Below, piece after piece: positions 11,586 through 20,133 of a stretch of 64,000 bases of DNA (position 1 is the first letter of the stretch; each line of letters opens with the position of its first letter). Made by a program: the position numbers and the translations under genes. Source of the stretch: Cyclobacteriaceae bacterium (lineage in GTDB: Bacteria > Bacteroidota > Bacteroidia > Cytophagales > Cyclobacteriaceae); contig JALHRJ010000017.1 in the NCBI GenBank assembly GCA_022841475.1, forward strand, positions 25,795 through 89,794, given 5' to 3'. The notes under the pieces are model-generated. The model did no database searches, had not been told where the DNA came from, and saw only the letters and a list, made by a program, of their open reading frames with translations.

Positions 11586-11607
11586 CGGACTGTGTCCCCA
11601 CAGCCCG
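11586..11607. repeat. Hairpin repeat, TGTG/CACA family (degenerate copy)
   Basis: The arms CGGACTGTG and CACAGCCCG flank a TCCC loop, with one mismatch. It occupies the whole gap between two convergent stop codons (11580 and 11612), so it may act as a bidirectional terminator. It is related to the copies at 19127, 19220 and 20104. Confidence 0.6.
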
Positions 11608-16641: not shown

Positions 16642-17628
16642 ATGGAAAAAAAGACTCCCGCTACCATGGCTCCCACAATGGCCCCCACCATGGCTCCTGT
16701 GCATAAGGAAATTCCCGGCAACCCTTCTGTTGCCAAATCGAGCACGCAGAAATTAAATGATCGCTCTAATGGAAAGCCTCTACGTGTGCTCTCTGAAGAG
16801 GATTGGAAATTCTGGATTCACAATGGCTACATCGTAATCAAGAATGCAGTACCCAAAGAAAACTGCGAACGCCTTGCTAAACTGCTTTGGGAGTTTGAAG
16901 AAAAAGATCCGAACGATCCCTCTACCTGGTATGCACCACCGCGTGCCGAAATGCAAATGAAGGAACTCACCAATACGGGCATGGTGGAAATTTATAATCA
17001 TCAATACCTATGGGATAATCGTTCTGTTCAAAAAGTATATGATGCATTTGTGGATATCTGGGGAACCGAAAAACTTTGGTGCACCATCGATCGTGCTAAT
17101 CTCAACTTTCCGATCCGTCCGGGTTATGAATACAAAGGTTTTATCCATTGGGATTATGATCCGGAAACAAAACCACAAAATGTACAGGGGGTATTGGCGA
17201 TAGCCGATCAAACGGATGAGAACATGGGCGGCTTTCAATGCATACCCGAGTTGTATAGGACGTATGACACGTGGAAGTTAACACAGCCAGCCGACCGCGA
17301 TTACTTTAAACCAGATGTAACCGGCTTTGAAAAAGTAAAAGTAAAAATGGAAGCCGGAGATCTGCTGATCTTCAACAGCACAGAACCACACGGCATACGC
17401 CCAAATAATTCCAAAGATAAAGTGCGCATTGCTCAATACATTTCGATGATGCCTGCGGAAGAAGACAATGAAACCTTGCGTCAATGGAGAATAAACTCGT
17501 GGCGCGATCGCATTGCTCCTGAAGGTTATGCTTTCCCGGGCGATCCCCGTAAATGGGAACAAACCAAATATAAAACTGCTGAGCTTACACCACTCGGCAA
17601 GAAGTTGTTGGGATTGGAGAAGTGGTGA
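16642..17628 (+). CDS. Phytanoyl-CoA dioxygenase (PhyH) family oxygenase
   Basis: This Fe(II)/2-oxoglutarate oxygenase of 328 aa has the metal triad visible as His169-x-Asp171 (IHWDYD) and His250 (EPHGIRPN). Arg253 is a candidate 2-oxoglutarate ligand. The first 45 residues are low complexity and contain three TMAP repeats, so the true start could be one of several internal ATGs. No signal peptide is seen. It is divergent from the AraC regulator. The substrate is unknown; many bacterial PhyH enzymes hydroxylate small molecules rather than phytanoyl-CoA. Confidence 0.88.
   Translation: MEKKTPATMAPTMAPTMAPVHKEIPGNPSVAKSSTQKLNDRSNGKPLRVLSEEDWKFWIHNGYIVIKNAVPKENCERLAKLLWEFEEKDPNDPSTWYAPPRAEMQMKELTNTGMVEIYNHQYLWDNRSVQKVYDAFVDIWGTEKLWCTIDRANLNFPIRPGYEYKGFIHWDYDPETKPQNVQGVLAIADQTDENMGGFQCIPELYRTYDTWKLTQPADRDYFKPDVTGFEKVKVKMEAGDLLIFNSTEPHGIRPNNSKDKVRIAQYISMMPAEEDNETLRQWRINSWRDRIAPEGYAFPGDPRKWEQTKYKTAELTPLGKKLLGLEKW
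16663..16698 (+). repeat. Three in-frame 12-base repeats encoding TMAP
   Basis: Three consecutive 12-base units (ACC/ACA ATG GCY CCN) encode TMAP-TMAP-TMAP near the N-terminus of the PhyH protein. Each unit carries an ATG. Copy-number change would not shift the frame. Confidence 0.8.
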
Positions 17629-17664
17629 GTCTTCTTTAAATTATTCCTCGGTCTGTGTCCTCAC

Positions 17665-17979
17665 CATAGTCGTTAACTTAAGAAATGCATTGGTATTGTG
17701 TAAGCTATGATTGCCATCTTTGGCCAGGTATTTTATATATCGTCCCTACAGGACTTGAAATGCATAATTTTTCATTTTCTATTACCAACATGTCGTCCCT
17801 AACGGGACTTGTTTTCGATATTTTGAACTTGTATTTAAAGTCCCTTTAGGGACGACATGTTGGTAATAACCCAATCGAAATAAGTATCAAATCCCTTTAG
17901 GGATGACATATAGTTTTCCCACTTCAAAGCGTTAACACTAACAACTCATTTCTATCTCATCCTTAAGTTAACGACTATG
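17665..17979. mobile_element. MITE-like element, 315 bp, 18-bp perfect inverted ends
   Basis: The ends CATAGTCGTTAACTTAAG (17665-17682) and its perfect reverse complement (17962-17979) bound a non-coding 315-bp segment. The direct repeat GTGTCCTCAC lies immediately outside both ends (17655-17664 and 17980-17989), the expected 10-base target duplication. The inverted similarity extends further inwards imperfectly. No transposase frame exists inside, so mobilisation would need an enzyme encoded elsewhere. It carries four REP-like units. It occupies most of the 517-base gene-free gap 17629-18145. Confidence 0.8.
17737..17912. repeat. Four REP-like units in nested inverted arrangement
   Basis: The unit GTCGTCCCTAACGGGACTTG occurs in variants at 17737-17757 and 17780-17810 (forward) and at 17838-17868 and 17888-17912 (reverse). 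The inner pair forms a 31-bp inverted repeat with one mismatch around a 27-base spacer, so the transcript could fold into a long hairpin. Each unit also holds its own small GTCCC/GGGAC palindrome. This resembles REP/BIME sequences, but no REP-associated transposase gene is in the window. Confidence 0.75.
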
Positions 17980-18145
17980 GTGTCCTCACAGACCGAGCCT
18001 TTTTCCATTCAATTACGAGTCCTTTGTTTTAACACCGAACGAATTTCTTAAAAGAACAAAACTATTAGGTCTGGCTATGAGCTTGATTACAATCAAAAAA
18101 AATTGCAAAACTTATAATCACTCTATATCTTAAACAATCAAAATT

Positions 18146-19009
18146 TTGGAATCATTGAATCTTCGTATTAGCGTTTTTTTGTGCTTTTTCTTTTTTGCTG
18201 CCCTCACGGGCAACGGGCAGAGCGAGTTCCTATTTCGTATTCTGGCTGCCAAAGGTACCGTCTGGATTAATGGAAGCCCTGCTAAAGTAGGCGCTTCATT
18301 GTTCGAGGGAGATTCTTTAGAAATTAAATCAGAATCTTATGTTGGACTGGTGCATGGTTCGGGGAAGGCTGTTGAGGTAATGGATGAAGGAACTTATTCC
18401 ACCTACGATTTAGAAAACATGATACCCAAAACTTCTGATCTACTTTTGCGTCTACAAAATAGGCGTCCATCTGTAAAGCCCAACGCGAATGAAGGTATCT
18501 ATACCCTTACATCATTCCAACATCCGATATTGTTTTCCAAGGTTACTCTACTCTGGTGCCCTGATACTCTTACAATTAAAGAGTATCGAATCGATATCGA
18601 AAACATGTTTGACGAAGTATTGACGACCTACGTAACCACGAATACATATTATGAATTGGATTTAACTGATGAAACACTTCAAGGTGAGATGGTTTTGCTC
18701 GTTAAAATCAAGTCAAACGAACCGAATTCAAAGTTTAAGTCAGCGCAGATCCTGTTAAAGAAAGGAAGTCAGAAAAGTATCGATCAGGAACATGTGCTTG
18801 AAGGTAAACTCAACTCCAATTCAAAAGATCCAAAATACTGGATAGAAATCGGTGATGAATGTGCAAGCAAAAAATTCTTGTATAGTGCCCTTTATGCCTA
18901 TTATAAAGCCATGATTACCTCGCACGAAGCAATCTACAGGGATAAGCTTATTGATTTTGTCAAAACAGAGTTTAATGCTGATCCGGATTTTATTCGATGT
19001 TTTAATTAG
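18146..19009 (+). CDS. Exported FecR-like protein of unknown function
   Basis: This 287-aa frame has no ATG near its start. TTG at 18146 or TTG at 18155 opens a signal peptide (LRISVFLCFFFFAALTGNGQ), so a TTG start is likely. Residues of about 30-90 read like a FecR/LPXTG-type beta domain (AAKGTVWINGSPAKVGASLFEGDSL and LVHGSGKAVEVMDEGTY). The C-terminal third has alpha-helical, TPR-like character (KDPKYWIEIGDECASKKFLYSALYAYYKA). No named family was recognised. Upstream is the repeat-rich gap, where no clear promoter box was seen. Confidence 0.65.
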   Translation: MESLNLRISVFLCFFFFAALTGNGQSEFLFRILAAKGTVWINGSPAKVGASLFEGDSLEIKSESYVGLVHGSGKAVEVMDEGTYSTYDLENMIPKTSDLLLRLQNRRPSVKPNANEGIYTLTSFQHPILFSKVTLLWCPDTLTIKEYRIDIENMFDEVLTTYVTTNTYYELDLTDETLQGEMVLLVKIKSNEPNSKFKSAQILLKKGSQKSIDQEHVLEGKLNSNSKDPKYWIEIGDECASKKFLYSALYAYYKAMITSHEAIYRDKLIDFVKTEFNADPDFIRCFN

Positions 19010-19032: not shown

Positions 19033-19118
19033 ATGAATCAACTCTATACAACCCTCAACAACGGTATCATCATGCCTTTGCTGGGCTTAGATGTTTATTA
19101 CATGTACAACCGCGAAGC
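19033..19118 (+). pseudogene. 5' fragment of an aldo/keto reductase gene
   Basis: These 86 bases match the first 86 bases of the intact reductase gene at 19265 with 10 mismatches (about 88% identity). The match ends abruptly at the codons for NREA, and a TGTG/CACA hairpin begins 8 bases later. The open frame runs on to 19230 as unrelated sequence, so no functional enzyme can be made. Confidence 0.85.
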
Positions 19119-19126
19119 TATGCCCT

Positions 19127-19156
19127 CGGTCTGTGTCCTCACAGACCGGTTTTTTT
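19127..19156 (+). terminator. TGTG/CACA hairpin with T-run
   Basis: The perfect 9-bp arms CGGTCTGTG and CACAGACCG flank a TCCT loop, and a run of seven T follows. This is a convincing intrinsic terminator and also a member of the repeated hairpin family. Confidence 0.75.
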
Positions 19157-19219: not shown

Positions 19220-19243
19220 CTGGTCTGTGAGGACACAGACCAG
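19220..19243. repeat. TGTG/CACA hairpin, AGGA-loop orientation
   Basis: The perfect 10-bp arms CTGGTCTGTG and CACAGACCAG flank an AGGA loop, the reverse complement of the TCCT loop. It lies 21 bases upstream of the aldo/keto reductase start. Confidence 0.75.
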
Positions 19244-19264: not shown

Positions 19265-20080
19265 ATGACTCAACTCTATACAACCCTCAACAACAGCATC
19301 ACCATGCCCTTGTTGGGATTAGGTGTTTACGACATGTACAACCGCGAAGCGGAAGAGGCTGTTGGCAACGCACTTGAAATTGGCTACCGACTGATCGATA
19401 CGGCTGCGATGTATAAAAATGAAACGGAAATCGGCAATGCGATTCGTACAAGTGCCGTTACACGTAAAGAAATTTTTCTTACCACCAAAGTAGCTGATGG
19501 TGATCAGGGTTATGATAACACGTTGCGTGCGTTTGATGAGAGCAGTAGAAAACTCAATTGCGATTACGTAGATCTGTATCTCGTTCATTGGCCGATTAAG
19601 AAAACACGCAAAGAAACCTGGAAGGCGCTTGAAAAATTGTATGCCGACAAACGCGTGCGCGCCATTGGCGTTGCCAACTACCTGCTTCCGTTTTTGAATG
19701 AACTCGAATCCTATAGCGAGATAACTCCCGCTGTTAATCAGGTAGAGTTTAGTCCATACCTGTTTCTGGAAGACCTGCTGAATGAATGCAACCGAAAAAA
19801 TATTCAATTGCAAGCCTACACACCTCTTGTGCGTGGGCAGAGATTTAGTGATCCTAAACTTATTTCACTTGCCAGTCAGTACGAAAAAACACCGGCACAA
19901 ATTATCCTTCGGTGGATGTTACAATTGGGTGTGTCTACGATCCCAAAATCATCGAACATAATTCGACTGAAAGAGAATTTTGATGTGTTTGATTTTCAGA
20001 TTTCGGATAGCGACATGAAGAAGATCAATGCCTTTAATGAAAACTTCAGAGTGGTGGATGATCCGATGATGATGCTGTAA
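19265..20080 (+). CDS. Aldo/keto reductase
   Basis: This is a cytosolic NAD(P)H-dependent carbonyl reductase of 271 aa with the complete catalytic tetrad Asp45, Tyr50, Lys75 and His108. The C-terminal NADPH-binding segment STIPKSSNIIRLKENFDVF is also present. It resembles the 2,5-diketo-D-gluconate reductase (AKR5) group. The gene sits between two TGTG/CACA hairpins, and remnants of its own 5' and 3' ends lie outside them. The hairpin just upstream leaves little room for a promoter. Confidence 0.93.
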   Translation: MTQLYTTLNNSITMPLLGLGVYDMYNREAEEAVGNALEIGYRLIDTAAMYKNETEIGNAIRTSAVTRKEIFLTTKVADGDQGYDNTLRAFDESSRKLNCDYVDLYLVHWPIKKTRKETWKALEKLYADKRVRAIGVANYLLPFLNELESYSEITPAVNQVEFSPYLFLEDLLNECNRKNIQLQAYTPLVRGQRFSDPKLISLASQYEKTPAQIILRWMLQLGVSTIPKSSNIIRLKENFDVFDFQISDSDMKKINAFNENFRVVDDPMMML

Positions 20081-20103: not shown

Positions 20104-20133
20104 ATGCTGGTCTGTGAGGACACAGACCAGCAT
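20104..20133. repeat. TGTG/CACA hairpin, 13-bp stem
   Basis: The perfect arms ATGCTGGTCTGTG and CACAGACCAGCAT surround an AGGA loop. A decayed half-copy (GCTGGTTTGTAAGGA) lies just upstream. The hairpin lies between the convergent aldo/keto reductase and xseB genes. Confidence 0.75.

Follow-up and report, generated by a model that had tools for sequence, protein, structure and literature searches.

What kind of mobile DNA splits the hairpin that follows a PhyH-family gene in this Cyclobacteriaceae genome, how did it come to lie at the very centre of that hairpin, and does transcription still end after the gene? These questions arise from an earlier note on the window, by which we mean the whole stretch of 64,000 nucleotides that was analysed and to which all coordinates refer. 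We argue here, at a probability of roughly 75%, that the insert is a non-autonomous element related to IS231-like insertion sequences (IS) of the IS4 family, that it occupies the exact centre of a REP-like hairpin, and that a transposase with a preference for hairpin centres probably delivered it in trans.

Structure of the insert

The earlier note had described a 315-bp MITE lying in a hairpin and flanked by a duplication of 10 bases, and both its letters and its coordinates hold on rereading (Table 1). The duplicated sequence, GTGTCCTCAC, is the centre of a hairpin with an 11-bp stem, and a run of five T residues follows two bases beyond that stem. When the 315-bp insert and one duplicate are taken out, the flanks fold into a stem of 11 bp that is capped by a TCCT loop; the fold thus confirms that excision rebuilds a TCCT-loop hairpin with a T-run, like the intact copy that begins at 19128. 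The note's further claim, that the insertion struck the loop of a repeated hairpin, is borne out by the position of the duplication at the hairpin centre and by intact copies of the hairpin elsewhere in the window.

Table 1. Features of the split hairpin, the insert and their surroundings, in window coordinates
Feature	Position	Strand	Basis or remark
PhyH-family gene, upstream of split hairpin	16642-17628	+	ORF; PF05721, 38 bits, cut-off 22
Left hairpin arm CTCGGTCT	17647-17654	+	direct reading; inverted-repeat pair I1
First 10-bp target duplicate GTGTCCTCAC	17655-17664	+	direct reading; inverted-repeat pair I1
MITE-type element, 315 bp	17665-17979	.	perfect 18-bp inverted ends, 10-bp duplication, no inner ORF of at least 80 aa
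Left terminal inverted repeat CATAGTCGTTAACTTAAG	17665-17682	+	same 18 bases at ends of IS copies L061 and L062
IS200-type palindromic cassette within element, borders approximate	17733-17915	.	four GTCCC/GGGAC palindromes; aligned with stand-alone cassettes C41 and C19
Right terminal inverted repeat	17962-17979	-	exact reverse complement of CATAGTCGTTAACTTAAG
Second 10-bp duplicate GTGTCCTCAC	17980-17989	+	direct reading
Right hairpin arm AGACCGAG	17990-17997	+	direct reading
T5 run 3' of split hairpin, terminator-like, putative function	18000-18004	+	direct reading
Intact target hairpin GGTCTGTGTCCTCACAGACC, T-run after it	19128-19147	+	exact match; terminator-like scan hit 19126-19149
Intact target hairpin	19222-19241	- (opposite orientation)	exact match
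Intact target hairpin	20109-20128	-	exact match

Allowing up to three mismatches, the 18-bp end is confined in the window to the two termini of the element, where shuffled sequences would lead us to expect 0.02 sites. Across the whole genome, at up to two mismatches, these two exact sites are joined by two 2-mismatch sites, at C20 and C4. No partner end was found by eye for the C4 site. The C20 site is a terminus of a second, diverged copy of 200 bp, which has 95 bp in common with the window element at one end (77% identity) as well as part of the interior, and is shortened at the other end. This copy is flanked by GTGTCTTTAC and GTGTCTTCAC, within a degenerate hairpin of the target-hairpin family, such that both copies found in the genome (2/2) occupy hairpin centres. 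The structural characters expected of a MITE are present: small size (315 bp and 200 bp), no transposase, the inverted ends of autonomous copies, a target duplication and two copies. Rfam returned for the element DNA only two microRNA-family matches, far below gathering scores and attributable to the palindromes within the element, and the plasmid collection returned a single match of 33 bases (E 0.5). In some 350 bp, three types of mobile repeat lie one within another: a RAYT-type palindrome holds an IS4-type MITE, and this in turn holds an IS200-type cassette.

Family of the element

The earlier note would have abandoned its reading had the 18-bp ends never occurred elsewhere. They do occur, the exact end being present in 10 other genomes among 193 relatives searched and in 40 stretches of a named genome collection; matches with one or two mismatches are partly due to chance, because a reversed control pattern also matches many genomes. 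The autonomous element with the same ends, which the note had proposed to look for, exists in related Cytophagales as an IS of 1.54-1.56 kb with an IS4-family transposase. In the genomes G030 and G043 exact ends enclose elements of 1,555 and 1,540 bp, each with one long ORF, and in a Ferruginibacter sequence (L115, 1573-3132) they stand 1,560 bp apart. The flanks of the Ferruginibacter copy differ, with 10-mers GTGTCTCCAC and GTGGGGACAC that do not match each other, which suggests that copies may have recombined or that the assembly was joined at this point.

Transposases from three loci with the same end (L061, L062 and L068) score above the cut-offs for PF01609 and NF033592, and the Y(2)R(3)E(6)K motif is present in all three. 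The end CATAGTCGTTAACTTAAG matches all eight fixed positions of IS231 ends, CAT-------AA--TAA--- (Table 1 of PMC2266710), and also matches the four fixed positions given for ISH8 ends, hence the two subgroups are not separated by ends. The target duplication is 10 bp at the window element and 10-11 bp at other complete copies, where the IS231 range is 10-12 bp. Judged by these characters, the element, whose family the earlier note had considered unclear, belongs to the IS4 family and is IS231-like; at the subgroup level, ends, duplication length and YREK motif agree with IS231, with ISH8 a further possibility.

The element's own draft genome yielded no transposase homologue, although the same query was positive in G043, G030, G025 and others, and the element contains no inner ORF of at least 80 aa; it is therefore a non-autonomous derivative. 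Among 395 genomes sampled evenly from the phylum, none matched the transposase at E 1e-60, so at this threshold it is not widespread there; at E 1e-40 it was detected in 25 of 390 genomes of the family. A search of 390 family genomes with the MITE DNA, a weak one with at most two candidates scored per genome, gave one partial match beyond its own genome (G020, cassette only). Ten stretches of Cellulosilyticum ruminicola (L081, L085, L089, L090, L091, L098, L103, L111, L113 and L119) also carry the exact 18-bp end, at AT-rich sites with no hairpin core; the ends are the same and the taste in targets is another.

The target hairpin and the PhyH locus

Besides the intact copies in Table 1, GGTCTGTGTCCTCACAGACC recurs at 11587 with three mismatches (0.00 expected in the window). 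At C76, five copies of the window hairpin stand around or beside a 188-aa RAYT-like gene, and at C140 another RAYT-like gene, whose product is 48% identical to that of C76, lies between hairpins with a GTG-N4-CAC core and other arms. Against NF047646 (REP-associated tyrosine transposase) the C76 and C140 proteins score 73.4 and 79.5 bits, just below the cut-off of 80. The Y1 genes at C19, C61, C41 and C153 have no such hairpin in the flanks that were fetched. Association with RAYT genes, one hallmark of REPs, is thus seen at two RAYT-like genes, but a genome usually has more than 100 REPs, and the number here is low, 14 places with up to three mismatches in the 5.7-Mb genome. For both reasons we call these hairpins RAYT-associated, REP-like palindromes. 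This name is better than the terminator hairpin of the earlier note, which was right as to the T-run and the terminator-like appearance. The window hairpin at C76 (L021, 588-1758 of G000:C76) brackets each of two adjacent genes, the RAYT-like one and one that resembles 2'-5' RNA ligase genes (PF13563, 28 bits, cut-off 27).

The search for an orthologous empty site found none: at 12 other PhyH loci, from 11 genomes of the same genus, both the element and the hairpin are missing from the 1.5 kb on each side. In three genomes of the genus, G041 among them, an aldo/keto-reductase-like gene lies within about 25 bases 3' of PhyH, from which it follows that about 1.6 kb has been inserted at the window locus. 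The stretch absent from those relatives includes a 287-aa ORF (18146-19009) that separates the split hairpin from the hairpin pair and has no Pfam match at E 0.01. The aldo/keto-reductase-like gene has its opening 86 bases (19265-19350) repeated just upstream, at 19033-19118, with 76 of 86 positions identical, and the paired hairpins at 19128 and 19222 lie between the two 86-base copies.

Choice of target

From 42 exact ends one was dropped for a flank shorter than 10 bases, and 41 were analysed, with phylum labels taken from record titles. Of the 26 Bacteroidota ends, several of which come from one genome and are not all independent, 20 adjoin 10-11 bases that read GTG-N4/5-CAC or GTC-N4/5-GAC; the other six have no such core, nor does any of the 13 Firmicutes ends or the two remaining ends. 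Complete copies were selected by their ends and duplication, not by hairpins (L008 was delimited by eye). Of the 35 loci examined, 17 were incomplete and 18 complete, though one of the latter, L204, is L122 fetched again; with the window element, L008 and L112, the set comes to 20.

When the targets of these 20 Bacteroidota copies were rebuilt, 16 had a centred stem of at least 7 pairs, compared with 628 of 6000 random positions (10%) and 132 of 364 targets with swapped flanks (36%). At a threshold of at least 8 pairs the corresponding counts are 12 of 20, 501 of 6000 and 105 of 364. L130, L188, L191 and L203 are the four copies below 7 pairs. Folding the whole target with longer flanks gave 15 of 20 centred, 14 of them with at least 7 pairs (random positions, 406 of 4000). 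Two further short copies with one-mismatch duplicates and doubtful ends (L092 and L110), not centred on folding, were left out; counting them would give 16 of 22. In Firmicutes, two complete copies that share this end lie at AT-rich sites and have no centred hairpin. Hairpin loops, to which the earlier note had pointed as a preferred target of some transposases, are thus the usual target of the Bacteroidota relatives, and the transposon group of the window element likely seeks hairpins.

It may be instead that the transposase reads sequence only, that is, a symmetric core (GTGTCYYCAC and its relatives) of which REP-like palindromes are merely the main carriers. The duplicated core is indeed strongly conserved, two copies (L194 and L195) have imperfect arms, and part of the hairpin signal must be the core itself, since over a third of the swapped-flank targets, which keep the core, still give centred stems. 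Against this, all eight complete copies of GTG/GTC type (among which the C20 copy was entered by its second duplicate) have a stem of at least 8 pairs, whereas only 48 of the 159 insertion-free occurrences of the core lie in such a hairpin. Distant copies, moreover, occupy palindrome centres with quite different cores: three of the four G710 copies lie at TGCCGCA-N5-TGCGGCA, the fourth being one mismatch off, and the target of the G750 copy is a 15-bp stem. We regard sequence-only targeting as a serious alternative, if a somewhat improbable one.

Under the reading that we prefer, a transposase drawn to hairpin centres, the MITE would have been inserted by cut and paste by an enzyme now absent from, or unassembled in, its own genome. 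A transposase dimer would dock on the dyad axis of the palindrome and read the symmetric GTG/GTC...CAC/GAC core, and would probably also read the paired arms, whether as a cruciform or as a bendable palindrome. Because core, arm letters and pairing vary among hosts, these insertions are a natural collection in which the parts played by sequence and by structure in target choice could be told apart. If structure is what is read, the enzyme would be an example of a DDE transposase whose integration is guided by shape and does little harm.

Fate of the terminator

The earlier note had suggested that the insertion may have disabled the PhyH terminator, which finds no support in silico. The predicted fold of the RNA from 17640 to 18010 has an energy of -146.7 kcal/mol, against a mean of -69.8 for 100 shuffles (z -15.6), and keeps 11 outer pairs, ten of them at probabilities of 0.96-1.00 and the outermost at 0.63-0.97 across four sequence contexts. 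Replacing the interior with 40 shuffled versions leaves outer-stem pairing unchanged, so the pairing is due to the symmetry of the ends and the target: the target halves and the element ends are mirror-symmetric, and the outer stem is predicted to re-pair for that reason. In folds of the growing transcript the outer stem is still open at 17989 but has closed, atop the paired element ends, once 17997 is reached, ahead of the T-run. The outer stems of the Terrimonas and C20 MITEs are likewise predicted to be paired, save at mismatched positions (two in C20).

On the opposite reading, the hairpin arms, now more than 300 bases apart, no longer serve as a terminator and transcription continues past PhyH. 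The fragment from 17955 to 18003 does fold weakly on its own (only -3.7 kcal/mol), and a simple terminator scan, with three terminator-like sites against 3.5 in shuffles, lists the intact hairpin at 19126 and omits the split one; this omission arises because the loop exceeds the limit of the scan. Pair probabilities near 1 in all four contexts and with all 40 shuffled interiors, together with closure of the outer stem ahead of the T-run, make the loss of the terminator unlikely. Termination after PhyH is instead predicted to survive the insertion: the mirror symmetry of target halves, duplicates and ends would let the RNA re-zip through the element ends to the original outer stem before the T-run, and with this stem termination would be retained. 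By this prediction, a terminator may outlast an insertion at its hairpin dyad, a point to bear in mind wherever operon breaks are inferred from MITE or IS insertions. A far wider proposition, that a Bacteroidota clade of IS4-family transposases picks terminator and REP palindromes by DNA shape, docking on their dyad or on the extruded hairpin whatever their arms, and that after the mirror-symmetric insertion the hairpin re-forms and terminators stay unbroken, is speculative and, as a whole, doubtful.

The cassette and the extent of the element

The cassettes at C41 and C19 have only interior palindromes in common with the element, and one C19 cassette adjoins an IS200-type Y1 transposase gene. 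At this locus (L013, 1598-2059 of G000:C19) the gene lies between GTCCC/GGGAC palindromes like those in the MITE interior, and this palindrome-flanked Y1 locus is a likely source of the MITE cassette. The 68 bases from the end to the cassette are common to both MITE copies and absent from stand-alone cassettes; acquisition of the cassette likely predates the separation of the two copies.

That the cassette, rather than the IS4-like ends, drove movement is very hard to credit: stand-alone cassettes are known at C41 and C19, one of them beside an IS200-type transposase gene, but they lack the 68 bases found in both MITE copies, the 449-bp Terrimonas copy and the 1.5-kb copies appear cassette-free though they have these ends and the duplication, and IS200-type transposition, unlike the window element, involves no target duplication and has no need for long inverted ends. 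It is just as improbable that the hairpin arms belong to a longer unit with 36-base inverted ends that moved whole: arms, duplicates and ends do form one 36-base inverted repeat (89% complementary), and arms of the same kind occur at both copies in the genome, but intact insert-free copies of the hairpin exist, the duplicates are direct repeats, as from target duplication, and copies with identical 18-bp ends have different arms, which already refutes it.

Comparison with known systems

Insertion of an IS4-family element at a REP axis is already known. In the relevant parts of PMC1525189 and PMC2266710, all nine copies of ISRm22 (IS4 family, subgroup IS4Sa) in Sinorhizobium meliloti lie at the palindromy axis of REPs, and the window element resembles it in being an IS4-family element at the axis of a REP palindrome. 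ISRm22 differs, on the same pages, in its 6-bp duplications and single REP consensus, in contrast to the 10-11 bp, IS231-like ends, differing arms and MITE form of the window group. Other IS, including ISPsy8, ISPa11, ISPpu9 and ISPpu10, also target REP palindromes according to the relevant part of PMC1525189, and ISPsy8 similarly sits on the symmetry axis of a predicted hairpin. They belong, as described there, to other IS families or make unlike duplications, of 3 bp in ISPsy8 and 2 bp in ISPpu9 and ISPpu10, with none defined in ISPa11.

In structure there is a likeness to IS231 and MIC231 of the Bacillus cereus group, which, in the relevant parts of PMC2266710, share the ends CAT-------AA--TAA, duplications of 10-12 bp, the YREK motif, non-autonomous derivatives and some insertion specificity. 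The difference lies in the host phylum, subgroup IS231 being reported there almost exclusively from the B. cereus group, and in the target, since hairpin loops are not mentioned in those parts of PMC2266710. When the plasmid collection was searched with the transposase, the best matches were Bacillaceae IS4-family transposases, only about 30% identical to those of the window group, none covering 80% of the query.

The target, in turn, resembles REP/RAYT systems (see PMC2817692), in which opposed palindrome pairs lie beside a gene for a REP-associated tyrosine transposase-like protein; these usually comprise more than 100 REPs per genome, against the 14 hairpins here. Among the literature matches listed (titles and the starts of abstracts), none concerned IS231-like elements in RAYT hairpins of Bacteroidota. 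Set against those matches, and as far as our searches show, three things are new: a Bacteroidota IS231-like group with hairpin targets of differing arms, a MITE of that group with an IS200-type cassette inside it, and a hairpin that is predicted to survive the insertion.
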